A stretch of DNA of 64,000 bases from Amylibacter marinus (lineage in GTDB: Bacteria; Pseudomonadota; Alphaproteobacteria; Rhodobacterales; Rhodobacteraceae), in the NCBI RefSeq assembly GCF_030160015.1, contig NZ_BSNN01000002.1, forward strand, positions 930,001 to 994,000, written 5' to 3'. Below the pieces are notes generated by a model, which searched no databases, was not told the origin of the DNA, and saw nothing but the letters and a program-made list of their open reading frames with translations. Below, in pieces: positions 37,981 through 51,080 of the stretch; the stretch's first letter is position 1, and the number at the start of each line of letters is the position of its first letter. The position numbers and the translations under genes were made by a program.

Positions 37981-39042
37981 TCAACGCAGTCGTGCCTCGG
38001 ATTCTGCATCAAAGAACATAGCATGTTCAGCCTCAAAGACCACATCCACGGTGGTGTTGGGGGCAATGGGATCATCCCCCTTGGTCTCTACGGTGATGCG
38101 CTCGCCCGTTGGGGTGGTTAGGTAATCATAGGCGACCCCGCCCAACCGTTCGCGCAGGTTCACCACGATGCCAGATTTTGCCTCGGTGACCGCCAGATGT
38201 TGTGGGCGCAGACCCACGGTAATGGCAGCGCCATTCGCCGGTAGGGACACATCAGTTTTGATCAGCGTATCGTTTAGCGCGGGCACACGCACGCCGCCCT
38301 GATCCACCACACCATTTAAGAAGTTCATGGAAGGCGAACCGATAAAGCCAGCCACAAATTTATTGTCCGGGTTTTGGTAGAGCTCCATTGGGCTACCGAC
38401 CTGTTCGATATTCCCAGCACGCAGAACCACGATTTTGTCCGCTAGGGTCATGGCCTCGACCTGATCATGGGTCACATAGATCATGGTGGTGCCCAGTTCT
38501 TTGTGCAGGCGGGCGATTTCCACACGCATATCTACGCGCAATTCCGCATCAAGATTAGACAGTGGTTCATCGAACAAGAATACATCGGGGCCGCGCACAA
38601 TGGCGCGCCCGATTGCCACACGTTGGCGTTGGCCACCAGACAGGGCCTTGGGTTTACGATCTAGGTAGGGGCCGAGCTGCAGTATTTCGCTGGCTTTGGC
38701 CACTTTTTCGTCGATTTCTGCCTTGGGAACACCATTCATTTTCAGGCCGAACCCGACGTTTTGTTCCACCGTCATATGCGGGTAAAGCGCATAGGTTTGG
38801 AACACCATCGCCACGCCGCGCTCTGCGGGGTCGGCGTTGGTAACATCGCGCGCGCCGATGTGGATCTGGCCATCGCTCGTATCCTCTAGGCCTGCGATCA
38901 TACGCAGCAGTGTTGATTTACCACAGCCCGATGGGCCAACAAAGACGCAAAATTCCCCGTCTTCGATTTGTAGGTCAACGCCATGGATGACCTGGGTTTT
39001 GCCGTAGCGTTTGATCGCCCCTTTGAGTGTTACTCCTGACAT
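37981..39042 (-). CDS. ABC transporter ATP-binding protein (MsmK/UgpC/MalK type)
   Basis: 353-residue sugar-type ABC ATPase. Walker [10 protein letters not shown] at about 36-44, Q-loop [10 protein letters not shown], signature [15 protein letters not shown] near 135, Walker [13 protein letters not shown] and switch THDQVEAM are intact; a C-terminal TOBE/OB domain (about 240-353) completes the MalK shape. It energises CUT1 permeases such as those encoded 2.3 kb away on the opposite strand. It follows the IclR gene by 40 bases, so regulator and ATPase form a minus-strand pair facing away from the galactoside operon. Confidence 0.93.
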
Positions 39043-39082
39043 TATTGGTCCTTTCCCAATTGCGCCTTGTGATGCGCGGTGT

Positions 39083-39862
39083 TCATGATGGAAACTGCCA
39101 TGATGTGGCCTCGTCTCCGATTAATTTTGCGGTTTTCAGCAAGGGCTGGCGAAACTGTTTCAAGGCTTCGGTATCGAAACGTGTTGTGGCGCTGGCGATT
39201 GATATCGCGCCCACGATACGCCCATTGGTCGACAGGATGGGGGCCGCAATTGAATTGATGCCCTGTTCGTGTTCTTCGTGATCAAAGGCGATGCCTGATT
39301 TCCGAATTTTGGCCAGCTCTTCTGACAGGTCATCAGCACTACCCTTGGTTGTGGTTGTGAATTTGTAGAAGGATTGCTGCTGCAGGACGATCTGAAGGCG
39401 CTTGGGTGCCAGGAAGGCCAGCATAGCCTTGCCAACACCTGTGCAATAGGCCGGTGCCACATGCCCCACCTGTGCCAAAGTTTCGAATCGGTCAGTGGCG
39501 CGCAGCTTGTCTACGAACAGAACCTGCCCATTATCAAGCTGTGCAAGGTGCACAGCCTCGCCCACTTCTGTGGCCAGCTGTTCTAGGAAGGGGCGCGCGA
39601 TGGGGGCAAGGGATGCGTTTTTCCATGCGGCATGGGCCAGCCGCATTAGGCGAATGCCCAGAGAATAGGCGCCGGTATCCGTATCTAGGCTAAGCATTTG
39701 TTGATTGGTCAGGGTTTGAAGGAATCTGAACAAGGTCGCCTTTGGGTATGGGCTGTCTTGGAGCAATTCAGAGAACTTTACCGGTCGCCCATAGGCAGCA
39801 ACTTGGTCAAGCACCTCCAGTGCTTTGCCCACCGTTCCGTCAGCTTTGACAGGTTTATCCAT
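39083..39862 (-). CDS. IclR family transcriptional regulator
   Basis: 259-residue regulator. The N-terminal winged helix has [25 protein letters not shown] ... [18 protein letters not shown]; the C-terminal effector-binding IclR domain has [33 protein letters not shown] and [34 protein letters not shown]. It diverges from the galactoside transporter operon across 140 bases that hold a palindrome fitting an IclR dimer, so it probably controls this locus in response to galactose or a downstream sugar acid. Confidence 0.9.
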
Positions 39863-39934
39863 GTGTTCCTCCCTGGGGATTCGGGTCAGAATCCCAACAA
39901 CCCCGTTGACATTTGTAGCGAGTCACGTCAGAGT

Positions 39935-39970
39935 TTTCAATACTTGATACTAAGTTTCAATATATGAAAC
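39935..39970. promoter_or_regulatory. Operator-like palindromes between IclR gene and galactoside operon
   Basis: GTTTCAATATATGAAAC (39954-39970) is a perfect palindrome with 6-bp arms and a 5-base centre. Just left of it, GTTTTCAATACTTGATAC (about 39933-39950) resembles a weaker copy. The pair lies about 33-70 bases before the binding-protein start, where a repressor would cover the promoter. Binding by the adjacent IclR protein is inferred. Confidence 0.6.
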
Positions 39971-40002
39971 CAATAGTCAACAGGGACCCTAGGGAGGAAA
40001 CT

Positions 40003-41259
40003 ATGTTCCAATACTCAAAAACTCTGCTGGCCGCGCTGGCCGCAGCCACAACCTTGGCGGGCAATGCCAGTGCCGACAACTTGACGGGTGATCTAAAGAT
40101 CTTCTTGGATACGTCCAACCCAGCACCCCGCGCCACAATGGAAGCCATGATCGCGCGCTTCCAGGCCAAGAACCCCGAGATGAACATCGAAACAACGGTG
40201 ATTGATCGCGAAGCTTATAAAACCCAGATCCGCAACTTTCTGACGGCCAATGCACCGGATGTTGCCACATGGTATGCGGCCAACCGCATGACACCTTATG
40301 TGAATGCGGGCCTGTTCGAGGATGTATCTGATCTATGGGCAGAGCCAGAGATAGCAGAAAACCTTGCATCAACCAAGGGTGCCATGACCATCGATGGCAA
40401 GCAGTGGGGTGTGCCATACACCTACTATCAATGGGGCGTTTACTACCGCGCCGATATCTACAAGGAGCTGGGCCTAAGTGAGCCTGCGAATTTTGATGAG
40501 ATGGTTTCCAACTGTGAGGCTGTTATCGCCTCTGGTCGTAAATGTTACACAATTGGTACCAAGTGGTTGTGGACGGCATCTGGCTGGTTTGATTATTTGA
40601 ACATGCGCACGCATGGGTTTGATTTCCATATGCAATTGGCGCGTGGCGAGATTGCGTGGACAGATGACCGTGTGCGCGAAACATTTGCCAACTGGCAGCG
40701 TTTGGTTGATTTAGGCGCCTTTGTTGATGACCACCAGAACAAAGACTGGCAGCAATCTCTACCGTTCTTGGTATCCGGTGATGCGGCGGCGATCCTAAAG
40801 GGCAACTTTGCCGTGGCCCCCTTGCGCGAAGCAGGTCTTACCGATGATCAGCTGGACTTTCACCAGTTCCCAGCCATCACACCGGGCATTGAATTGGCAG
40901 AAGATGCGCCAACAGACACGTTCCACATCCCAACGAATGCACAAAACAAAGACAACGCCCGTGCGTTCCTGCGCTTTGTGGTATCTGCGGAAGAGCAAAC
41001 CGAGATCAACAACGGCAAGAACCTAGGGCAGTTGCCTGTGAACGCAAAATCAAGCGTTGACGACGACAAGTTCCTGCAAAAAGGTTTCGAGATGCTGTCT
41101 ACCAATAGCCCCGGTGGTGTAGCACAGTTCTTTGACCGTGATTACCCGGCAGAAATGGCCAAGGCGGCCATGGAAGGCATGCAAGAGTTCATGGTTTTCC
41201 CAGACAACTTGGATGATATCCTAGAGCGTCTGGAAGCCGTGCGCCAAGATAGCAAGTAA
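40003..41259 (+). CDS. ABC transporter substrate-binding protein (galactoside locus)
   Basis: 418-residue periplasmic binding protein of the CUT1 sugar family. Signal peptide at about residues 1-24 (MFQYSKTLLAALAAATTLAG, cleavage after NASA). Mature features: GDLKIFLDTSNPAP, a SBP cluster-B type core with APDVATWYAANRMTPYVNAGLFEDVSDLW, and WGVPYTYYQWGVYYRADIYKELGL. I start at 40003 because AGGGAGGAAA lies directly upstream; an in-frame ATG at 39964 falls inside the operator. A stem-loop after its stop probably keeps its expression above that of the permeases. Confidence 0.92.
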   Translation: MFQYSKTLLAALAAATTLAGNASADNLTGDLKIFLDTSNPAPRATMEAMIARFQAKNPEMNIETTVIDREAYKTQIRNFLTANAPDVATWYAANRMTPYVNAGLFEDVSDLWAEPEIAENLASTKGAMTIDGKQWGVPYTYYQWGVYYRADIYKELGLSEPANFDEMVSNCEAVIASGRKCYTIGTKWLWTASGWFDYLNMRTHGFDFHMQLARGEIAWTDDRVRETFANWQRLVDLGAFVDDHQNKDWQQSLPFLVSGDAAAILKGNFAVAPLREAGLTDDQLDFHQFPAITPGIELAEDAPTDTFHIPTNAQNKDNARAFLRFVVSAEEQTEINNGKNLGQLPVNAKSSVDDDKFLQKGFEMLSTNSPGGVAQFFDRDYPAEMAKAAMEGMQEFMVFPDNLDDILERLEAVRQDSK

Positions 41260-41269
41260 TCCATAATCT

Positions 41270-41296
41270 GTGACGCGCAGCCCGCCTGCGCGTCAC
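41270..41296 (+). terminator. Stem-loop between binding protein and permease genes
   Basis: Perfect 11-bp stem GTGACGCGCAG / CTGCGCGTCAC with a 5-base loop, 11 bases after the binding-protein stop and without a following T run. In ABC operons such hairpins commonly act as partial terminators or protect the upstream mRNA from 3' decay, raising binding protein relative to permeases. Confidence 0.75.
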
Positions 41297-41381
41297 GCGA
41301 CGATCTGTCGCCAATGACAAGCGCCCATGGGGTGCTTTTCCCTGACGACTGGCATCAATTGCCACGAAAGCGAGGCCCCTA

Positions 41382-42275
41382 ATGTACAGCTGGTATAAAA
41401 GAAACCAAATCGCCGCCACACCGTGGCTGTTTTTGATCCCTGCATTGATCATGTTTGCGATGTATGTGATCTATCCGATTTTGCAGAGCTTTAATCTATC
41501 TCTCTACAAATGGGATGGGCTTGGAGATGCCGAATATGTAGGGCTGGCCAACTACGAAAAATTGCTGCTGCGTGACCGCGCCTTTGAAATTTCCATGTGG
41601 AACAATGCCAAATGGCTGGCGTTTTATTTGCTGGCGATCCCTGGTGGGCTGTTTATTGCGCTGTTCCTTAATCAAACGGTGCGGGGCATTCGCCTGTATA
41701 AATCGCTGTTCTTCTTTCCCTTTGTGATTTCGCAAATCGTTGTGGGGCTGGTGTTCACGTGGTTTTATGACCCGACATTCGGCCTGTTCAATGCTATAAT
41801 TGGCGTGGTGGGATTGGGCCCTGTGAATGTTTTGGGTGATCCTCAGCTGGCGACATATGGTATTATTGCCGCAGGCCTGTGGCCGCAAACCGCCTACTGC
41901 ATGATCCTGTATCTAACGGGACTGAATGCGGTAGACCCCGAACAAATCGAAGCCGCGCGCCTTGATGGGGCTAAGGGGATGCGAATGCTGTGGCATGTGA
42001 TCCTACCCCAGTTACGCCCTGCTACATTCATTGCCTTTGTGGTGACGATTATCGGTGCCCTGCGCTCGTTTGATTTGATTTCGATCATGACCAATGGCGG
42101 GCCATTTGGATCCACGCGGGTGCTCAGCTTTTATATGTTCGAAAAATCCTTGTCTGAATATGGGTTCAAAATGGGATATGGCGCGGCCATTGCGGTGGTG
42201 CTGTTCCTGTTGATGCTGATCTTTATCGGCTATTTCCTATGGCGGATGTACCAAGACGAAAAAGGAGGTCACTGA
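41382..42275 (+). CDS. Sugar ABC transporter permease (MalF/UgpA type)
   Basis: 297-residue inner-membrane permease with six predicted helices; the first is near residue 14-34 (PWLFLIPALIMFAMYVIYPI). The cytoplasmic EAA loop that contacts the ATPase is EAARLDGAKGMRMLWHVILPQLRPA near residue 187. Pairs with the next permease to form the channel for the galactoside importer. Two bases separate the genes. Confidence 0.93.
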   Translation: MYSWYKRNQIAATPWLFLIPALIMFAMYVIYPILQSFNLSLYKWDGLGDAEYVGLANYEKLLLRDRAFEISMWNNAKWLAFYLLAIPGGLFIALFLNQTVRGIRLYKSLFFFPFVISQIVVGLVFTWFYDPTFGLFNAIIGVVGLGPVNVLGDPQLATYGIIAAGLWPQTAYCMILYLTGLNAVDPEQIEAARLDGAKGMRMLWHVILPQLRPATFIAFVVTIIGALRSFDLISIMTNGGPFGSTRVLSFYMFEKSLSEYGFKMGYGAAIAVVLFLLMLIFIGYFLWRMYQDEKGGH

Positions 42276-42276
42276 T

Positions 42277-43122
42277 ATGTTTCCTGCACCTATTGAAAAA
42301 GCATCGCGCGGCGCGCGCATTACCTATCAAACCATGTTGCCGTTTGTCTTGGTTTTATGGTTGGCCCCCCTGATCGCAGTGGCGCTGTTTTCAGTACGCC
42401 CTGCGGCGGATTTCACCGCCGGCAACTATTGGGGGCTGCCGTCATCTTGGGAATTCATTGCCAACTATGGGCAGGTGTTCACCTCGTCTATGCCGCGCTA
42501 TATCCTGAATTCTTTTATGATTACCATACCCACGGTAATCGGCGCCGTTGCGCTTAGTGCGATGGCGGGGTTTGCCTTGGGGGTTTACCGCTTTCGCGGA
42601 AATTTGATTTTGTTCTTCCTGTTTATTGCCGGTAATTTTGTGCCTTTTCAGATCTTGATGATCCCAGTGCGCGATCTGACCTTGGATATGGGGCTATACA
42701 ATACCAAAACAGGGCTGGTTCTGTTTCACGTGGCCTTCCAAACGGGGTTCTGCACGCTGTTTATGCGCAATTTCATCCGCGCCCTGCCCTTTGATCTGAT
42801 CGAGGCGGCGCGCGTAGAGGGCATTGCAGAATGGCGGATATTCTGGTTTGTGGTTCTACCCCTGATGAAGCCCGCGCTAGCGGCGCTGGCGGTACTGATT
42901 TTCACCTTTATCTGGAACGATTATTTCTGGGCGGTGGTCTTAACCCAAGGTGAGGCGGCCCAACCTGTGACCGCAGGGATCACCAGCTTTAACGCCCAAT
43001 TTCGCGCCATGTATCATTTGATGTCGGCTGGTTCCATTATTGCGGCCCTACCCCCTGTTGCTATGTTTTTTCTAATGCAGAAGCACTTCATCGCGGGCCT
43101 GACATTGGGTGCCGTAAAATGA
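42277..43122 (+). CDS. Sugar ABC transporter permease (MalG/UgpE type)
   Basis: 281-residue second permease. The EAA loop reads LIEAARVEGIAEWRIFWFVVLPLMKPALA near residue 171, and the C terminus ends FFLMQKHFIAGLTLGAVK, the standard MalG-type ending. An AAAGGAGG ribosome binding site sits at the end of the preceding permease. Its stop overlaps the start of the alpha-galactosidase gene by four bases, tying import and hydrolysis in one transcript. Confidence 0.94.
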   Translation: MFPAPIEKASRGARITYQTMLPFVLVLWLAPLIAVALFSVRPAADFTAGNYWGLPSSWEFIANYGQVFTSSMPRYILNSFMITIPTVIGAVALSAMAGFALGVYRFRGNLILFFLFIAGNFVPFQILMIPVRDLTLDMGLYNTKTGLVLFHVAFQTGFCTLFMRNFIRALPFDLIEAARVEGIAEWRIFWFVVLPLMKPALAALAVLIFTFIWNDYFWAVVLTQGEAAQPVTAGITSFNAQFRAMYHLMSAGSIIAALPPVAMFFLMQKHFIAGLTLGAVK

Positions 43123-45203
43123 TCCAAACATGGCGCTTGGATTCGCCTGACCAGACATTGGTATTTGCGACCCAAGATCAATGCCTACCGCGTGTTCTCT
43201 ATTGGGGGAAATCACTACCCCTGACCGAGGATCTTGTGGCCCTTGTAATCAGCGGCGAAATGGATGTAACCGGCGGAATGCTGGATGCCAATCCGGATAT
43301 TTCGCTGTGCCCAGCGCAGGATCAGAATTTTCCCGGTCATTTAGGTATGGAGATTTTTGGTGCCGACGGTGCACCCGTTACCCCGCGCCTGCGCCTGCAA
43401 GAGGTGGATGTATCCGCCGATCAGCTGGTGTTCCACTGTGCCGACACGAATGCGGGCATCCGCTATAGCGCACACTTCTGCATCGATGCCACCACGGGAA
43501 TCATCACCACCAAGGCTCGCCTGCACTGCCAATCCCCGATGCGCCTGAATTGGCTGGCGGCCCCCGTATTGCCCGCCCCCCAAAACAGCATCGAGATGGT
43601 TGATTTCGCGGGGCGCTGGTGTGGTGAATTCCAGACCAATACCATCCCTTGGTCGTCGGGCATGCGATATCGCGAGAACCGCACTGGGCGCACTGGGCAC
43701 GAGCATTTTCCTGGCCTATACCTGCCCTGCACAGGGGCGCAGAACACAACCGGTTCGGTATATGCGCTGCATTATGGTTGGTCAGGCGGGCACGCCATGG
43801 TGGCAGAGGAATTACCAGACGGCCGTAGGCAGGTGCAATTTGGCCATGCCAAGGGGTCCCACAGGGATGCACGCCAAGAGTTTGAAACAGCACCTCTGTA
43901 TGCCATTTATTCCCCGCATGGGACAAATGGCTGTAGCATCGGATTTCAGCGCCACCTGCGCGACCAGATTGTAAAATTTCCCAATTCTGCCGCCCCGCGC
44001 CCTGTGCATTACAATTGCTGGGAGGCGGTCTATTTCGATCATAAGATCGACGAACTAAAGGATATCGCAACCCGCGCCCATGATCTGGGGGCAGAGCGGT
44101 TTGTTTTGGATGACGGCTGGTTTGGCCTGCGCGATGACGACACCAGCTCTTTGGGGGATTGGGACATTGATCCGCGCAAATACCCCGATGGGTTGGCCCC
44201 GCTAGTGGATCATGTCACAGGCCTTGGAATGGGATTTGGAATTTGGTTCGAGCCTGAAATGATCAACCCAGACAGCGCTACATACCGCGCCCACCCCGAT
44301 TGGATATTGGGTGCGCCAGATCAAATATTGGGCCGCCAGCAGATGGTACTGGATCTGCGCATTGGCGCGGTTCAGGACTATTTGTTTGAGAAAATTTCCA
44401 ACATTCTGTCCGCCTATGCGGTTGAGTATGTGAAGTGGGATCATAACCGCGTATTGCCGGTATCGGATGCGGCGCAGACCGAGGCGCTATATGTGCTGCT
44501 GGCGCGGCTGAACACTGCCTTTCCTTTGGTAGAGTTTGAAAGCTGTGCATCGGGCGGGGGGCGTATTGACTTTGGCATCCTGCATCACACCCACCGCGTC
44601 TGGTTATCTGACAGCAACGATGCGCTAGAGCGTTTGCAAATTCAGCACAATGCGGCCCTGTTTTTGCCCAGCATTGTCACCGGCAGCCATGTGGGCCCGC
44701 GCAATTGTCATACCTCTGGTCGGGTGATTGATATGGGCATGCGGGCATGGGTTGCCGCCCAGCGCCACATGGGGTTTGAAATGGATCCCCGCGAACTGAC
44801 GGATGACGAGGCCGATACATTGCGCACAGTCACCACATGGTGGAAAAGCAATCGCCATTGGATGGGGGATGCGGATATTCTGCGTCTGAATTCCGCTGAT
44901 CCAGCCGTTGTGGCCGAGCAGCAATTGTCCGCAGATGCCGGCCGCTTTGTGGTCTTTGCGGGTAAGGTTGCGACCAGCAGGCAGATCCTGCCGCGCCCCT
45001 TGCCTCTTACCCGCCTAGATCCGGATGCCATCTATCGCATCCAGCTGGTCAACCGCGCCGATCCCCCCACCCTGTCGCGCGCAGAGCAAGCCATCAAAAC
45101 ACAGCCACTTGATCTAAGTGGCGCATATTTAATGAACCATGGTCTGACCCTGCCGTGGACTTTCCCTACAACAATATGGGTTGTCGAAGGAAAACGGCTA
45201 TGA
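43119..45203 (+). CDS. GH36 alpha-galactosidase
   Basis: 694-residue cytoplasmic glycoside hydrolase that releases terminal alpha-linked galactose. The N-terminal beta-sandwich is followed by the TIM barrel: RFVLDDGWFGLRDDD, GIWFEPEMINPDSATYRAHPDWIL, nucleophile Asp in YVKWDHNR near residue 441, FESCASGGGRIDFG, and acid/base Asp in VWLSDSNDA near residue 498. No signal peptide, consistent with uptake before cleavage. Typical GH36 substrates are melibiose, raffinose and galactosylglycerols. ATGA overlaps at both ends of the gene show tight coupling. Confidence 0.94.
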   Translation: MIQTWRLDSPDQTLVFATQDQCLPRVLYWGKSLPLTEDLVALVISGEMDVTGGMLDANPDISLCPAQDQNFPGHLGMEIFGADGAPVTPRLRLQEVDVSADQLVFHCADTNAGIRYSAHFCIDATTGIITTKARLHCQSPMRLNWLAAPVLPAPQNSIEMVDFAGRWCGEFQTNTIPWSSGMRYRENRTGRTGHEHFPGLYLPCTGAQNTTGSVYALHYGWSGGHAMVAEELPDGRRQVQFGHAKGSHRDARQEFETAPLYAIYSPHGTNGCSIGFQRHLRDQIVKFPNSAAPRPVHYNCWEAVYFDHKIDELKDIATRAHDLGAERFVLDDGWFGLRDDDTSSLGDWDIDPRKYPDGLAPLVDHVTGLGMGFGIWFEPEMINPDSATYRAHPDWILGAPDQILGRQQMVLDLRIGAVQDYLFEKISNILSAYAVEYVKWDHNRVLPVSDAAQTEALYVLLARLNTAFPLVEFESCASGGGRIDFGILHHTHRVWLSDSNDALERLQIQHNAALFLPSIVTGSHVGPRNCHTSGRVIDMGMRAWVAAQRHMGFEMDPRELTDDEADTLRTVTTWWKSNRHWMGDADILRLNSADPAVVAEQQLSADAGRFVVFAGKVATSRQILPRPLPLTRLDPDAIYRIQLVNRADPPTLSRAEQAIKTQPLDLSGAYLMNHGLTLPWTFPTTIWVVEGKRL

Positions 45204-46909
45204 GCAAAGAACGGCGCAACCGCGCGTGGTATGGGAAACACGACAAAGATGGGTTTATTCACCGCAGTTGGATGAAGAATCAGGGCTTCCCTGATCATGC
45301 CTTTGATGGTCGCCCGATCATTGGGATTTGCAACACATGGTCAGAATTAACCCCGTGTAATTCAGGCCTGCGGGATCTGGCCGAGGGCGTAAAACGTGGC
45401 GTCTGGGAGGCCGGGGGGTTCCCAGTAGAGTTTCCAGTAATGAGTTTGGGTGAAACCCAGATGAAGCCCACGGCGATGCTATTTCGCAATCTGTTGGCGA
45501 TGGATGTCGAGGAATCGATCCGCGCCTATGGCATAGATGGCGTCGTGTTGCTGGGGGGCTGTGACAAGACTACGCCTGGGCAATTGATGGGGGCGGCCAG
45601 TGTTGATTTACCAACGATCGTTGTGTCATCGGGGCCAATGCTCAATGGTAAATGGCAGGGCAAGGACATCGGATCAGGCACAGATGTATGGAAATTCTCC
45701 GAAGATGTGCGCGCAGGAGATATGACCCTAAAGGATTTCATGGCCGCCGAGAGCGGCATGAGCAGATCCAAGGGCACCTGTATGACCATGGGCACAGCAT
45801 CAACAATGGCATCCCTGTGCGAGGCCATGGGGGTATGCCTGCCCACCAATGCCGCCCTGCCGGCGGTAGACAGCCGCCGCATGGCGCTGGCCCATGTAAC
45901 CGGCAAGCGGATTGTAGAAATGGTGGACGAGGATCTGAAGCTGTCAAAAATTCTGACGCGCAGCGCCTTTGAAAATGCTATTTTAGCAAATGGTGCGGTT
46001 GGGGGATCTACCAATTCTGTGGTGCACCTATTGGCCCTTGCGGGGCGCGTTGGGGTGGATCTAACGTTGGATGATTTCGACCTTGGCTCTGATATTCCAT
46101 TACTGGTGAATTGCATGCCCTCGGGAAAATACCTGATGGAGGATTTCTGCTATGCTGGCGGTATGCCTGTTATTCTAAAAGAGCTGGGCGAGAGATTGCG
46201 CAGTGCCACCACCTGTTTGGGCGGGGATATTACCGCCTATGCCGAGGGGGCGGAATGTTTTAACCGCGATGTGATCCATGCCTTTGATACCCCGCTGAAA
46301 CCGGCGGCAGGGATCAAGGTTCTGCGCGGCAATTTGGCCCCGCGCGGCGCGATTGTAAAACCGTCTGCCGCCAGCGAACACCTGCTGGAACACGAGGGCG
46401 AGGCCTATGTTTTTGAAAACATCGAACAATTAAAGGCCACCATTGATGACCCTGATCTGCCGGTAACCAAAGACAGCATTCTGGTGCTAAAGGGCTGTGG
46501 ACCCAAGGGATATCCGGGCATGGCCGAGGTTGGCAACATGCCGATCCCGCGTAAATTGGTGCGCGAGGGTGTGCGCGATATGGTACGTATTTCTGATGCG
46601 CGCATGTCTGGTACCGCCTTTGGCACCGTGATCTTGCATGTTTCCCCCGAGGCCAATGCGGGGGGTAATCTGGCCTTGGTACAGACCGGTGATCGCATTC
46701 GCTTTTCTGCCAAAGACGGGGTGTTGGATGTGTTGATTTCTGATACAGAATTGGAACAGCGCCGCGCCAATTGGGCGCCTGATGCGCCCCATTACACCCG
46801 CGGGTATGCCAAAATGTATATCGATCATGTGATGCAGGCCGACCAAGGGGCCGATCTAGATTTCCTTGTGGGCAAAGACACACGCCCCGTAACACGAGAG
46901 AGCCACTGA
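45200..46909 (+). CDS. IlvD/Edd family sugar-acid dehydratase (L-arabinonate/D-galactonate type)
   Basis: 569-residue Fe-S dehydratase. Motifs: PIIGICNTWSELTPCNSGLRDLAE near residue 44 (first cluster Cys), VLLGGCDKTTPGQLMGAASVDLP near residue 118, SGTC-like RSKGTCMTMGTASTMASL near residue 190, and C-terminal GCGPKGYPGMAEVGNM. The whole pattern closely follows L-arabinonate dehydratase of Rhizobium leguminosarum, which also accepts D-galactonate and D-fuconate. In this locus it should convert D-galactonate to 2-keto-3-deoxygalactonate, taking the place usually held by enolase-type DgoD. Start chosen at 45200 (ATGA overlap). Confidence 0.88.
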   Translation: MSKERRNRAWYGKHDKDGFIHRSWMKNQGFPDHAFDGRPIIGICNTWSELTPCNSGLRDLAEGVKRGVWEAGGFPVEFPVMSLGETQMKPTAMLFRNLLAMDVEESIRAYGIDGVVLLGGCDKTTPGQLMGAASVDLPTIVVSSGPMLNGKWQGKDIGSGTDVWKFSEDVRAGDMTLKDFMAAESGMSRSKGTCMTMGTASTMASLCEAMGVCLPTNAALPAVDSRRMALAHVTGKRIVEMVDEDLKLSKILTRSAFENAILANGAVGGSTNSVVHLLALAGRVGVDLTLDDFDLGSDIPLLVNCMPSGKYLMEDFCYAGGMPVILKELGERLRSATTCLGGDITAYAEGAECFNRDVIHAFDTPLKPAAGIKVLRGNLAPRGAIVKPSAASEHLLEHEGEAYVFENIEQLKATIDDPDLPVTKDSILVLKGCGPKGYPGMAEVGNMPIPRKLVREGVRDMVRISDARMSGTAFGTVILHVSPEANAGGNLALVQTGDRIRFSAKDGVLDVLISDTELEQRRANWAPDAPHYTRGYAKMYIDHVMQADQGADLDFLVGKDTRPVTRESH

Positions 46910-47679
46910 TGAGCCAGACCGCAACATTTCACGACCTAAAGGGCAAAAGCGTATTTATCACGGGGGGCGGCTCGGGCATTGGCGCATCCCTAACCGAGGG
47001 CTTTATCGAACAAGGGGCGAATGTGGCCTTTGTTCAACGGTCGGATTCCACAGCGTTTTGCAATGAAATGGAGAGCAAACACGGGGTGCGCCCCCTGTTT
47101 ATACCCTGTGATATTACCGATATCGCGGCCCTGCGCGGTGCAATTGATACCGCCAGTGCGGCCCATGGGGCCGTGCAGGTTCTGGTGAACAACGCCGCCA
47201 ATGATCAGCGCCACAGCACCGCCGAGGTTGACGAGGAATTCTGGGACTGGTCACAGGCGATTAACCTAAAGGCATATTTCTTCGCCTGTCAGGCGGTGAT
47301 CGAGGGCATGAAATCCAAGGGCGGCGGCGCCATCGTGAATTTCTCCTCCATCAGTTATATGATGGGCAATGCAGGTTATCCCGCCTATACCACCGCAAAT
47401 GCGGGGATTAATGGTATGTCGCGTTCATTAGCGCGAGAATTTGGGCCAGATAATATTCGGGTGAATGCATTGGCGCCGGGCTGGGTTCTAACACAAAAGC
47501 AATTGGATCAATGGGCCGAACCCTCCGCATTGGCGGCGCATCTGGAACGCCAATGCCTGAAAGAACACCTAGCGCCGCGCGATATTGTGGATGGGGTATT
47601 GTTTTTAGCCTCTAACACCAGCCGCATGATGACCGGCCAGACGATGGTTGTGGATGGTGGCGTGGTGACCACTGGTTAA
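46909..47679 (+). CDS. SDR family oxidoreductase (putative galactose dehydrogenase, altered active site)
   Basis: 256-residue short-chain dehydrogenase. The cofactor motif is GKSVFITGGGSGIGASLTEGF near residue 9; NNAAND and the catalytic Ser in NFSSISYM are present. The active-site motif reads YTTAN (Tyr160, Asn164) where YxxxK is expected, so the catalytic lysine is replaced. From its position between the dehydratase and the aldolase it should oxidise galactose to galactonolactone, but the missing Lys makes the activity doubtful. The start codon shares one base with the dehydratase stop (TGATG). Confidence 0.82.
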   Translation: MSQTATFHDLKGKSVFITGGGSGIGASLTEGFIEQGANVAFVQRSDSTAFCNEMESKHGVRPLFIPCDITDIAALRGAIDTASAAHGAVQVLVNNAANDQRHSTAEVDEEFWDWSQAINLKAYFFACQAVIEGMKSKGGGAIVNFSSISYMMGNAGYPAYTTANAGINGMSRSLAREFGPDNIRVNALAPGWVLTQKQLDQWAEPSALAAHLERQCLKEHLAPRDIVDGVLFLASNTSRMMTGQTMVVDGGVVTTG

Positions 47680-47714
47680 GGGCCACGCGCCCATTAGAAG
47701 AATTGGACAAGACT

Positions 47715-48323
47715 ATGGATAGAAACATTATCGCAATTTTGCGCGGCGTGCGCCCAGACGAGGTGGTTGAACTGGCGGGGGCCTTAATCGAGGCAGGCAT
47801 CACCAAGATCGAGGTGCCGCTGAACTCGCCAGATCCGTTTGACAGCATCGCGCGCTTGGTCACAACCTACGGCGAGCGTGCATTGATTGGGGCGGGCACC
47901 GTGCTCTCGATCAGCGATGTGGCCCGCCTGAAAGAGATCGGCGCCAAGTTGGTGGTATCCCCAGACACCAACATCGAGGTGATCAAGGCCACTAAGGCCG
48001 CAAACATGCTCTCTTATCCTGGGGTTATGACCCCTACGGATTGTTTTTCCGCCCTTCGCGCAGGGGCTGATGGGCTAAAGTTTTTCCCAGGCTCTTTAAT
48101 CGGGCCAGCGGGTCTGGCGGCCATTCGCGCGGTGCTGCCCAAGGGTACTGAAACCTTGGCCGTGGGCGGCGCAGATGCCAGCAATTTCGCCCAGTGGCAG
48201 GCCGCAGGGGCAGATGGTTTTGGCATTGGATCGGCCATTTACAAGCCCGGTATAAACCGCGCAGAGATCGCCGCCCGCGCCGCAGAAATCGTGACCGCCT
48301 ATGATGCGGCATATGATCTGTGA
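47715..48323 (+). CDS. dgoA: 2-dehydro-3-deoxy-6-phosphogalactonate aldolase
   Basis: 202-residue class I aldolase of the KDPG/KDPGal family, splitting 2-keto-3-deoxy-6-phosphogalactonate into pyruvate and glyceraldehyde-3-phosphate. IIAILRGVRPDE near the start, ITKIEVPLNSPDP (catalytic Glu) and GADGLKFFPGSLIGPAGL (Schiff-base Lys) are diagnostic; the EVPLNSP version and FFPG fit DgoA more than Eda. I start at ATG 47715; a TTG four codons earlier (47703) is possible. It needs a phosphorylated substrate, which implies a kinase not found in the window. Confidence 0.92.
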   Translation: MDRNIIAILRGVRPDEVVELAGALIEAGITKIEVPLNSPDPFDSIARLVTTYGERALIGAGTVLSISDVARLKEIGAKLVVSPDTNIEVIKATKAANMLSYPGVMTPTDCFSALRAGADGLKFFPGSLIGPAGLAAIRAVLPKGTETLAVGGADASNFAQWQAAGADGFGIGSAIYKPGINRAEIAARAAEIVTAYDAAYDL

Positions 48324-49165
48324 TCGCGCCCTATGACCCGCGCAACGCCTCTTTGGGCGAGGGGCCGCTGTGGCATCCAGAACGCGCACAACTGTTCTGG
48401 TTTGATATCAATAACAACACCCTGCTAAGCCGCACCCAAGACGGACCAGCGCAGTGGCAATTTGACCGCCCTGTTTCTGCGGCGGGCTGGGTCAGCCATG
48501 ATGAGTTATTGATTGCCAGCGCCACCGATCTGTTTGTGTTCAATGTTGAAACCACAGCCCAAAGAACCCTCTGTGGGCTAGAGGTCGATAATTCCGCCAC
48601 ACGTTCCAATGATGGGCGCGCCGATCCATGGGGGGGCTTTTGGATTGGCACCATGGGCCGGCAGGCCGAGGCGCAGGCGGGGGCGATTTATCGATACCAC
48701 CGCGGTGTGCTGACGCGGCTGTACTCGGATATCACCATATCCAATGCGATCTGTTTTTCACCTGATAAATCTTCGGCCTATTTCGCCGATACACCGAGGC
48801 GCCAAATTATGCGCGTCTCGTTGGATAGCGATGGTTGGCCCATGGGCGCGCCAGAGGTGTTTGTCGACCTATCTGAACAGGGGTATAATCCAGATGGGGC
48901 AGTGGTGGATAGCACGGGCCATCTGTGGAACGCCCAGTGGGGCGCGGGGCGCGTAGCGCGCTATGCGCCCGATGGGGCCTTTGTTTCGGCTGTGGAAATT
49001 CCCGCCGCACAGGCCACTTGCCCTGCTTTTGGCGGTGCGGATTACAAAACCCTATTTGTGACCTCTGCATCGGAGGGTATGGTTAATCCATCCCCCGAAC
49101 AGGGCCAAGTGTTCAGCACCCAAACCGCCATCACAGGCCAACGTGAACACGCCGTAATATTATAA
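48320..49165 (+). CDS. SMP-30/gluconolactonase family lactonase
   Basis: 281-residue six-bladed beta-propeller lactonase. The metal-binding Glu lies in SLGEGPLWHPERAQLFWFDI near residue 13, with Asn in NDGRADPWGGFWIGTM near residue 95 and the Asp region in NPDGAVVDSTGHLWNAQWGAGRVARY near residue 190. In this operon it should open galactono-1,4- or 1,5-lactone to galactonate. The GTG start overlaps the aldolase stop by four bases (GTGA). Confidence 0.9.
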   Translation: MIAPYDPRNASLGEGPLWHPERAQLFWFDINNNTLLSRTQDGPAQWQFDRPVSAAGWVSHDELLIASATDLFVFNVETTAQRTLCGLEVDNSATRSNDGRADPWGGFWIGTMGRQAEAQAGAIYRYHRGVLTRLYSDITISNAICFSPDKSSAYFADTPRRQIMRVSLDSDGWPMGAPEVFVDLSEQGYNPDGAVVDSTGHLWNAQWGAGRVARYAPDGAFVSAVEIPAAQATCPAFGGADYKTLFVTSASEGMVNPSPEQGQVFSTQTAITGQREHAVIL

Positions 49166-49175
49166 GTGAAGTCAG

Positions 49176-51080
49176 ATGAAAAGAACTCTAGGAACCTGCT
49201 ACTACCCCGAACATTGGCCCGAGGATCAATGGGGCGAAGATGCGCGCCGCATGGTCGAGGCAGGCCTGACATGGGTGCGCATTGGTGAATTTGCGTGGTC
49301 GCGGCTGGAGCCGGTGCGCGGCGCGTATGATTTTGCATGGTTAGACCGCGCGATTGCGGTTCTGGGGGGCGCTGGCCTGCGCGTGGTGCTGGGCACGCCT
49401 ACGGCCACGCCACCGCGCTGGATGCTAGACCGCCACCCAGACATGTTGGCGCTGGATGAACAGGGACGCGCGCGCAAATTTGGGTCGCGGCGGCATTATT
49501 GTTTTAGTCACGAGGGGTATCGCGCCGAGTGCGCCCTGATCGTTGAGCAGCTGGCAGAACGCTATGGCAAGAACCCCCATGTGGCGGCATGGCAGACCGA
49601 CAATGAATACGGGTGCCACGACACCGCCCTTTCCTACAGTGACGCGGCGCGCATAGGATTTCAGGTTTGGCTACGTGACCGGTTCTCGGGCGATATTGCA
49701 GCACTGAACACCGCATGGGGCAATGTGTTTTGGTCTATGGAATATGATGATTTTGCCCAGATCGATCTGCCAAATCTAACGGTTACCGAGGCCAACCCCG
49801 CCCATTGCTTGGCATTTCGCCGCTATACATCCGATGCGGTGGTCAGCTTTAACCGGTTACAGGTTGATATCCTGCGCGCCCATACGGATAGGCCGCTGAC
49901 CCATAATTATATGGGGCGGATCACCGATTTTGACCATTTCGCGGTGGGGGATGATTTGGATATCGCCAGCTGGGATAGCTATCCGCTGGGCTTTTTGGAA
50001 GACCGCGTTGGCGCCGATGCCGCCCGTCAGCGTATCTATGCTCAGACGGGCGATCCTGACTTTCAGGCCTTTCACCATGATTTATACCGCGCGGTTGGGC
50101 GCGGGCGCTGGTGGGTGATGGAACAACAGCCCGGGCCTGTAAACTGGGCACCCTATAACCCAGAGCCCCTGCCCGGCATGGTACGCCTATGGACATGGGA
50201 GGCCTTTGCCCATGGGGCCGAGGCGGTGTGTTATTTCCGCTGGCGCCAAGCACCAATGGCCCAAGAGCAACTGCATGCGGGCATGTTGCGTCCAGACAGC
50301 AAGGATGCCCCCGCTATCATCGAGGCCCGCGAGGTGGCGCGCGAATTGGCCGATGCGGGTGATGTTGCACCAGCGCAGGCCCCCGTGGGCTTGATCTTTG
50401 ACTACGATGCAGATGCGGCTTGGCAGGTACAGCCCCACGGGGCAACACTTAGCTATTTCGGGCTGGTATTTGAACAATACCGCGCCTTGCGCTCCTTGGG
50501 CCTATCGGTGGATATTCTACCGCCAACGGTTCGTGATTTCACGGGCTACGCTGTGGTTCTGGCCCCAGGGATGATGCATATGCCCCAAGATTTAAAGAAC
50601 GCATTGGCCCAGAGTGAGGCCCATGTGGTGCTGGGCCCGCGCAGTGGCGCGCGCGATGCCCATATGAATATTCCCCTGCCCTTGCCACCGGATTACCCCG
50701 ACTTGGATGTGACTGTGGCACGTATTGAAAGCCTTCGCCCCGATATGCCCCGTGATTTGGCCGATGGTGGTCGGATTATCAATTACCGCGAGATTATTGA
50801 GGGCACTGCAGATGTGGTTCTGCGCTGTGCAAAAGGATCAGCCATTGCCATGCACGCGGGTACGGGCACCTATGTGGCGGCTTGGCTGGATTTAGAGGGA
50901 TGGCAGAATATCCTGCGCCCCCTGATACAGAACGCAGGAATCGAGACGATCGACCTGCCCGATGGGGTGCGTATCCGCGATACGGGGGCCGAGCGATTCT
51001 GGTTTAATTTCACCCAAGAGCCCCATCAGATCGGCGCGCATCATTTGGCGCCGATCTCGGTTTTACGCCAGCCGCGTTAG
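49176..51080 (+). CDS. GH42 beta-galactosidase
   Basis: 634-residue beta-galactosidase. Start LGTCYYPEHWPEDQWGEDARRM is the GH42 opening. Acid/base Glu lies in WQTDNEYGCHDT near residue 143, nucleophile Glu in WWVMEQQPGPVNW near residue 315. A trimerisation domain and a C-terminal beta domain follow (FTGYAVVLAPGMMHMPQDL, GTGTYVAAWLDL). No signal peptide, so it works on imported sugar. Last gene of the galactoside operon; it ends four bases into the convergent SDR gene. GH42 enzymes often act on beta-galactosides other than lactose. Confidence 0.93.
   Translation: MKRTLGTCYYPEHWPEDQWGEDARRMVEAGLTWVRIGEFAWSRLEPVRGAYDFAWLDRAIAVLGGAGLRVVLGTPTATPPRWMLDRHPDMLALDEQGRARKFGSRRHYCFSHEGYRAECALIVEQLAERYGKNPHVAAWQTDNEYGCHDTALSYSDAARIGFQVWLRDRFSGDIAALNTAWGNVFWSMEYDDFAQIDLPNLTVTEANPAHCLAFRRYTSDAVVSFNRLQVDILRAHTDRPLTHNYMGRITDFDHFAVGDDLDIASWDSYPLGFLEDRVGADAARQRIYAQTGDPDFQAFHHDLYRAVGRGRWWVMEQQPGPVNWAPYNPEPLPGMVRLWTWEAFAHGAEAVCYFRWRQAPMAQEQLHAGMLRPDSKDAPAIIEAREVARELADAGDVAPAQAPVGLIFDYDADAAWQVQPHGATLSYFGLVFEQYRALRSLGLSVDILPPTVRDFTGYAVVLAPGMMHMPQDLKNALAQSEAHVVLGPRSGARDAHMNIPLPLPPDYPDLDVTVARIESLRPDMPRDLADGGRIINYREIIEGTADVVLRCAKGSAIAMHAGTGTYVAAWLDLEGWQNILRPLIQNAGIETIDLPDGVRIRDTGAERFWFNFTQEPHQIGAHHLAPISVLRQPR

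Follow-up and report, generated by a model that had tools for sequence, protein, structure and literature searches.

The window analysed here is a 64,000-nucleotide stretch of the Amylibacter marinus genome (2.72 Mb in 14 contigs; the window is G000:C2:930001-994000), which named relatives of its GH36 gene place in the broadly defined Rhodobacteraceae, and at 37981-51080 it carries a divergent locus that appears to serve the import and breakdown of galactosides. The regulator and ATPase genes lie on the minus strand, and the genes from the binding protein through the last glycoside hydrolase (GH) lie on the plus strand, in the order binding protein, permease, permease, GH36, IlvD/Edd dehydratase, short-chain dehydrogenase/reductase (SDR), DgoA, lactonase and GH42. 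From permease 1 onward, genes overlap or are no more than about 25 bases apart (Table 1).

Table 1 Features of the galactoside locus, in window coordinates.
Feature	Position	Strand	Evidence
ATP-binding cassette (ABC) importer ATPase, MsmK/UgpC type	37981..39042	-	Pfam ABC_tran + OB_MalK + TOBE_2; NCBIfam NF008653 (UgpC subfamily) 470.9 bits, cutoff 432
IclR-family regulator, divergent from operon	39083..39862	-	Pfam IclR_C 160.5 bits, HTH_IclR 35.3 bits
17-bp palindrome GTTTCAATATATGAAAC, putative IclR operator	39954..39970		motif from 124 intergenic stretches between iclR and the substrate-binding protein gene, window included
Periplasmic substrate-binding protein (CUT1)	40003..41259	+	Pfam SBP_bac_1; start in open reading frame list 39964
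Permease 1, UgpA/MalF-like	41382..42275	+	Pfam BPD_transp_1
Permease 2, UgpE/MalG-like	42277..43122	+	Pfam BPD_transp_1
GH36 alpha-galactosidase	43119..45203	+	Pfam Melibiase 342.8 bits, GH36N, GH36C; aligned Asp pair D441/D498
IlvD/Edd-type sugar-acid dehydratase, probable galactonate dehydratase	~45200..46909	+	NCBIfam NF004784 904.2 bits, cutoff 539; ATG at ~45200 inferred
SDR, probable galactose 1-dehydrogenase	46909..47679	+	role by position; best NCBIfam match D-xylose 1-dehydrogenase 279.5 bits, under cutoff 400
2-keto-3-deoxy-6-phosphogalactonate aldolase (DgoA)	47703..48323	+	NCBIfam NF006600 272.3 bits, cutoff 207
SMP-30/gluconolactonase-type lactonase	48320..49165	+	Pfam SGL 238.2 bits
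GH42 beta-galactosidase	49176..51080	+	Pfam Glyco_hydro_42 498.2 bits + GH42M; aligned Glu pair E144/E316

An earlier note, made from the sequence alone, had placed a CUT1 importer, a regulator and cytoplasmic alpha- and beta-galactosidases in one unit and proposed the headgroup of digalactosyldiacylglycerol (DGDG) as its substrate. Pfam and NCBIfam models recovered all of the named components. The importer has the make-up of the CUT1 class, with an SBP_bac_1 protein, two BPD_transp_1 permeases and an ATPase bearing OB/TOBE domains. The GH36 protein has all three of its domains (N, catalytic and C), with D441/D498 aligned to D478/D548 of AgaB, and the GH42 protein has catalytic and trimerisation domains, with E144/E316 aligned to E141/E312 of the Thermus A4 enzyme (1kwg); we take both to be catalytic pairs, following the roles of the AgaB and Thermus residues. 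Each is the sole match of its family in the genome (GH36 at E <= 1e-60). Judged by eye, neither glycosidase has a signal-peptide-like N-terminus, in agreement with the cytoplasmic location proposed, and that of the binding protein is signal-peptide-like. The open reading frame listed for the binding protein spans 39964-41259, and its start is probably at 40003, because the longer version would begin within the palindrome at 39954-39970, and the ATG at 40003 is preceded by a good ribosome-binding site, AGGGAGGAA.

The co-location of these genes recurs across the family and is therefore not due to chance. Among 295 genomes of the Rhodobacteraceae, from 294 genera, we found the binding protein in 130 (E <= 1e-80), GH42 in 144 and GH36 in 84 (both E <= 1e-60), and Pfam GH4 in 86 (E <= 0.001). 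Within this sample, we typed 130 loci using tblastn: those of the 129 other importer-bearing genomes and a second, distant copy in G179 (L310). With the 23 loci cut by contig ends left out, 107 remained with at least 9.5 kb downstream, and 95 of these carry both galactosidases beside the importer (63 as GH36 with GH42, 32 as GH4 with GH42). In 94 of these, each of the two matches spans 90% or more of its query. The exception, L302, was considered as a minimal form and dropped, since coverage falls to 87% for GH36 and 68% for GH42, and both genes appear shortened.

The 12 remaining loci comprise three with GH36 only, one with GH4 only, five with GH42 only and three with neither. The GH36-only locus L183 has a GH2 enzyme on its other arm, just beyond the distance limit used and so counted by hand, together with DgoD and Gfo/Idh types as found on Paracoccus and Falsirhodobacter plasmids; the best NCBIfam match of this GH2 enzyme is the beta-galactosidase GalA, under that model's cutoff. 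L218, L263 and L186 lack GH42 beside the alpha-galactosidase; in each case a different contig of the genome encodes one. Of the five GH42-only genomes, all except G116, which has none, encode a strong GH4 away from the locus. The loci with neither enzyme are L310, the distant extra copy carried by G179; L214, whose genome (G065) encodes both at other sites; and L180, whose genome (G209) has a GH4 at another site and lacks a GH42 match.

At the genome level, GH36 or a strong GH4 occurs in 129 of 130 importer-bearing genomes (the exception being G116) versus 18 of 165 importer-free genomes, with a GH4 cut of E ~1e-59 or better chosen to separate MelA-like proteins from weaker GH4s, and only 3 of the 130 have both. 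GH42 occurs in 125 of 130 importer-bearing versus 19 of 165 importer-free genomes. In G065, G191 and G244, the only alpha-galactosidase candidate is a GH4 away from the importer whose model match starts one position later, as in loci whose GH4 genes are paired; we are less sure of its activity in these three. The pattern as a whole suggests that importer, alpha-galactosidase and beta-galactosidase are selected as one unit, and the comparative evidence for this is new here. Separately, three binding-protein genes contain one in-frame stop each (G015:C1:635368, G035:C1:1295248 and G256:C108:8854); these and the shortened L302 (G184) are possibly decaying copies or sequencing errors.

Swaps of enzyme family within a fixed position provide the strongest evidence on the alpha-galactosidase. 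The slot directly after permease 2 is occupied by GH36 in some loci and by a GH4 protein, about 450 residues long, in others, and the single GH4 example tested, from the window's own genus (L195 in G120), scores 672.1 bits against the NCBIfam alpha-galactosidase (MelA) model (cutoff 486). We mapped slot content onto a quick tree built from 128 binding proteins, most genera being represented by a single genome, in which 37 of 125 inner branches are well supported. GH36 versus GH4 identity changes 31 times among the 110 labelled rows. GH36 membership changes 44 times, with the 18 unlabelled rows (including loci cut by contig ends) scored as not GH36, versus a shuffled mean of 42.0, and is thus no more clustered than random; the well-supported branches alone force at least 24 of these changes. 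Since GH36 and GH4 share neither fold nor chemistry and yet are scattered over the tree, they appear interchangeable in the slot, and selection appears to keep alpha-galactosidase activity, rather than one particular enzyme, beside the importer. An alternative in which the alpha-galactosidase is an optional extra, considered because GH36 occurs in fewer genomes than the binding protein, was rejected, as GH4 MelA fills the slot.

Reduced forms of the locus retain the same core. L240, L264 and L305, all from the family, contain only importer, regulator, GH36 and GH42. Of 32 records of plasmid relatives found, 7 were examined. The plasmids of Mesorhizobium terrae (L316) and Rhizobium sp. BG4 (L317) are annotated with binding protein, permeases, alpha-galactosidase, ATPase and beta-galactosidase, one BG4 permease being missing among the annotations listed, which form an incomplete table; both plasmids have a different, helix-turn-helix regulator and no galactose pathway nearby. 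On Falsirhodobacter and Paracoccus plasmids, which retain the pairing of an alpha- with a beta-galactosidase, GH2, DgoD and Gfo/Idh/MocA proteins (as annotated) replace GH42, the IlvD/Edd dehydratase and the SDR. Because minimal loci keep both galactosidases without the galactose pathway, the galactosidases are tied to the importer more tightly than the pathway is.

The earlier note had also assigned oxidative galactose catabolism to the unit, which holds for four of the five gene classes of the De Ley-Doudoroff (dgo) pathway. As in that pathway, dehydrogenase, lactonase, dehydratase and DgoA stand in one operon; the window differs in having an IlvD/Edd-type dehydratase, an SDR-type dehydrogenase, which reaches the cutoff of none of the 25 NCBIfam models listed, and a DgoK encoded outside the locus. 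Relatives such as L195 and Ruegeria sp. TM1040 (L315, located on its megaplasmid) carry DgoK between SDR and dgoA (about 305 residues; 325.7 bits to Pfam DGOK in L195), and the corresponding interval of the window, 46909-48323, lacks it. The window's locus has thus lost, or never had, DgoK at this position. All five classes are nevertheless present in the genome, which has two DgoK matches elsewhere, at C2:419640 (L178) and C8:195556 (L177). One of these two genes adjoins a second dgoA-like gene.

No second target of the regulator emerged in the window's genome. Most relatives have, between iclR and the binding-protein gene, a TTGACA box together with a palindrome of 17 bp, GTTYCANWWWNTGRAAC, derived from 124 stretches including that of the window; scores have a median of 26.8 bits, a 5th percentile of 15.0 and a lowest value below 0, and the window scores 31.2. 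The IclR protein would bind this putative operator. The exact pattern occurs once in the window's genome, at 39954-39970 (reversed-pattern control, 0), and in at least 119 of the 295 genomes. A wider regulon in the window's genome was considered and rejected: allowing one mismatch gave seven sites per strand, the exact one included, versus eight for the reversed pattern, and these are therefore chance sites. Away from its galactoside locus, G193 has two exact copies of the palindrome side by side (G193:C12:6483-6530).

Because a galactosyl-glycerol substrate would free glycerol, we looked for glycerol genes near the importer. In 177 loci (some genomes counted twice), sequence extends 1 kb or more past the ATPase gene; glpD-glpK follow msmK in four of them, which represent three distinct genomes, L101 and L266 being from the same one. 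In these, iclR, msmK, glpD and glpK lie on one strand, with msmK-glpD gaps of 16, 16, 18 and 58 nt in L101, L266, L260 and L153. NCBIfam equivalog models confirm GlpD (758.2 and 725.5 bits in L101 and L153, cutoff 360) and GlpK (678.7 and 675.9 bits, cutoff 590.35). Across these three genomes, the binding proteins share 53-63% identity and the GlpDs 69-70%, and the loci are therefore not near-copies. GlpD has matches in at least 278 of the 295 genomes and falls within the fetched neighbourhoods in only six cases (L101, L266, L260, L153, L227 and L111). Genome G204 (L101) has a second GlpD on another contig, and G241 (L260) has no other at E <= 1e-80 among the matches listed. A genus-level search for further glpD-linked loci covered one and two genomes and gave only G334 (L313, genus of G241), in which glpD-glpK are still open beyond a damaged-looking msmK. 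Looser cases are a glpK convergent with the GH2 of L183 and, in L227 and L111, a glpD close to the GH42 end. The glpD-glpK genes beside the regulator-ATPase arm fit a substrate that releases glycerol. The window's own locus contains no glp gene, and its genome has one GlpD among the matches listed.

Other neighbours were collected from 200 loci, some genomes twice, with open reading frames picked by length, so that some families were missed; 20 representatives of the 22 commonest families were run against Pfam, that of L144 being left out and that of L227 covered via L101 and L153. The commonest extra neighbour is an aldose 1-epimerase of the galactose mutarotase type (41 of 200 loci, mostly towards the GH42 end; for example, L161:17101-18039), fitting a release of both alpha- and beta-galactose. 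A glyceraldehyde-3-phosphate dehydrogenase gene lies near 11 loci (for example, L133:17174-18166), and the other common neighbours look like unrelated flanking genes.

More distant relatives include two counter-examples. A Burkholderia relative (binding protein 44.6% identical) has an alpha-galactosidase; no beta-galactosidase is annotated in the vicinity, and a hypothetical neighbour of 595 residues has no Pfam match. Phaeobacter inhibens plasmid pDOK1-1-2 (L314, 7752-22844) has a binding protein 51% identical and two CUT1 importers, surrounded by a sulfatase, an annotated alpha-glucosidase/alpha-galactosidase and two cellulase-family enzymes; this related system probably handles a different sugar, which may be sulfated. 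This plasmid bears on the idea that the importer takes up algal galactan oligosaccharides, such as desulfated carrageenan-type fragments, whose alternating alpha- and beta-galactose would supply both linkages. We consider such a substrate very improbable for the window's locus: the 20 commonest neighbour families scanned include no sulfatase, rhizobia from soil and nodules retain the minimal unit, and the bonds for which GH36 and GH4 MelA are chiefly known are alpha-1,6.

The binding protein itself points to galactose. Its nearest solved relative is AcbH of Actinoplanes (PDB 3oo6-3ooa), both by sequence (138.4 bits versus 74.2 for the next protein) and by fold (Foldseek E 2e-31 versus 2.9e-24 for the next protein; template modelling score up to 0.89), the latter from a predicted model with a mean predicted local distance difference test (pLDDT) of 92.0. 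Identity to AcbH, which belongs to an acarbose cluster, is only about 24%. Equivalents of AcbH R82, D361 and R362 are R95, D378 and R379 (numbered from 40003) and are invariant in 44 of 44 aligned family proteins; crystal variants differ at the D and R positions. These three residues reportedly read the axial O4 of galactose (Licht 2011). As they are invariant, a galactose moiety is very probably recognised, to judge by sequence.

The same relationship would suit an importer mainly for free galactose, in which an AcbH-like protein would be restricted to beta-D-galactose, leaving the glycosidases to galactosides that are synthesised internally or taken up by some other system. AcbH is the best solved match by both measures, the three residues reported to read O4 are conserved and galactose pathway genes share the operon. 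We nonetheless regard such an importer as unlikely, in that it leaves unexplained both the pairing with two galactosidases in 95 of 107 loci and the minimal loci that have both galactosidases and no galactose pathway, and the identity to AcbH is low.

Our best explanation is an IclR-controlled system that would import small galactosides and split them in the cytoplasm. The CUT1 importer would take up galactose-containing compounds, including galactosyl-glycerols; GH36 (GH4 MelA in many relatives) would remove alpha-galactose and GH42 (GH2 in some relatives) beta-galactose; and the SDR, lactonase, dehydratase, DgoK (encoded elsewhere) and DgoA would oxidise galactose to pyruvate and glyceraldehyde-3-phosphate. 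The likeliest natural substrates are galactolipid headgroups, namely alpha-Gal-(1-6)-beta-Gal-glycerol from DGDG and beta-Gal-glycerol from monogalactosyldiacylglycerol (MGDG), with floridoside as a related option; headgroups would give galactose and glycerol, and the glycerol would go to GlpK and GlpD. We infer the ligand, enzyme specificities, pathway flux and induction from the genes, and we favour this explanation as a whole tentatively, at somewhat less than an even chance. For the galactosyl-glycerol substrate that the earlier note proposed, two lines of evidence are new: the enzyme pair is kept through family swaps, and glpD-glpK are linked in three genomes. These give some independent support to a hypothesis that is unproven, in which both the requirement for one molecule with both linkages and its identity as the DGDG headgroup are still conjectural.

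Several observations weigh against a headgroup substrate. The main one is that the binding protein may take nothing larger than galactose: AcbH, its nearest solved relative, reportedly binds neither lactose nor raffinose, and the window's protein aligns to it with short gaps only, so a narrow pocket may be shared. The title of the AcbH paper, as cited in PMC8233162, gives an exclusive preference for beta-D-galactopyranose. The two galactosidases next to a single importer may just as well act on two different kinds of galactoside. No glpD-glpK follow msmK in 173 of the 177 loci, nor in the window's own locus; the genome has no second exact palindrome that would link a lipase or glycerol gene to the regulon; and no lipase or sulfatase appeared among the 20 commonest neighbour families scanned with Pfam, a genome-wide lipase search not having been made. 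GH42 is unmatched in 5 of the 130 importer-bearing genomes (G059, G117, G209, G227 and G256) and alpha-galactosidase in one (G116).

Generalist galactoside uptake, which explains most of the facts, is nearly as likely as the headgroup reading. Here the system would scavenge melibiose, raffinose-type and lactose-like sugars, galactinol, galactosyl-glycerols and free galactose, and no single molecule would need both linkages. The enzyme pair is found in marine, soil and plant-associated bacteria, and loci with glycerol genes are a small minority. The alga-associated roseobacter Rhodoalgimonas is reported to grow on galactose, lactose, melibiose and raffinose, with negative API ZYM results for both galactosidases (PMC10608839). 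Generalist scavenging does not itself predict glpD-glpK on the regulator-ATPase arm in three genomes, nor such strict keeping of both activities.

A stronger form of the galactolipid proposal is that a dedicated importer with two galactosidases for DGDG and MGDG headgroups exists in about four in ten sampled Rhodobacteraceae genera and in some rhizobia, as a galactolipid counterpart of sulfoquinovosyl-glycerol catabolism, with GH36 and GH4 having replaced each other many times and some lineages having wired glycerol catabolism into the same arm. We consider this possible, and on balance rather doubtful. Few membrane lipids on Earth are as abundant as galactolipids, and we are aware of no bacterial importer and pathway described for the headgroups of these lipids. 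If the proposal is true, the locus would represent a widespread route of thylakoid-membrane recycling in marine and plant-associated alphaproteobacteria and a gene marker for tracking in blooms. Even with a wider galactoside range, a slot in which GH36 and GH4 repeatedly replace each other while the importer stays constant is a clear natural case of functional replacement.

The type of locus is not new. The earlier note was not aware of any role assigned to such a locus, and this needs qualifying on two counts. A near-identical gene set was printed in 2011 as cluster 1 of Roseobacter litoralis (RLO149_c015710-c015810, Table 3), labelled plainly as galactoside transport and galactose degradation, both putative, and its authors report growth on D-galactose (PMC3141670); that label also suits generalist uptake. 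Cluster 1 shares IclR, a galactoside ABC importer, RafA, SDR, DgoA, lactonase and BgaB with the window; its table lists DgoK and no dehydratase, whereas the window has a dehydratase and no DgoK, and the available text treats galactose, arabinose and fucose rather than galactosyl-glycerol (PMC3141670). Secondly, Egel (1979, 1988) had put forward galactosylglycerols derived from galactolipids as compounds used through a beta-galactosidase operon, considering them substrates of the Escherichia coli lac enzyme, as cited in PMC8333865; the idea is also cited in PMC11896792. A search of open-access papers gave, among the matches listed, no recognisable account of bacterial import of DGDG or MGDG headgroups beyond the Egel hypothesis via citing papers, which is no proof of absence. 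On the enzyme side, the text available for one study reports a GH36 enzyme forming isofloridoside from galactose and glycerol (PMC8509150).

What the lac system shares with the window's locus is thus the proposal that a beta-galactosidase operon serves galactosylglycerols from galactolipids (PMC8333865). It differs in the families of its importer and enzyme. The window's locus pairs its beta-galactosidase with an alpha-galactosidase, which lac is not known to have. A system that would work in a similar way is the sulfoquinovosyl-glycerol system of the SmoF/SmoI type, in which a photosynthetic lipid headgroup is imported and its glycerol freed in the cytoplasm; that system differs in acting on a sulfolipid headgroup and in using a GH31 enzyme.

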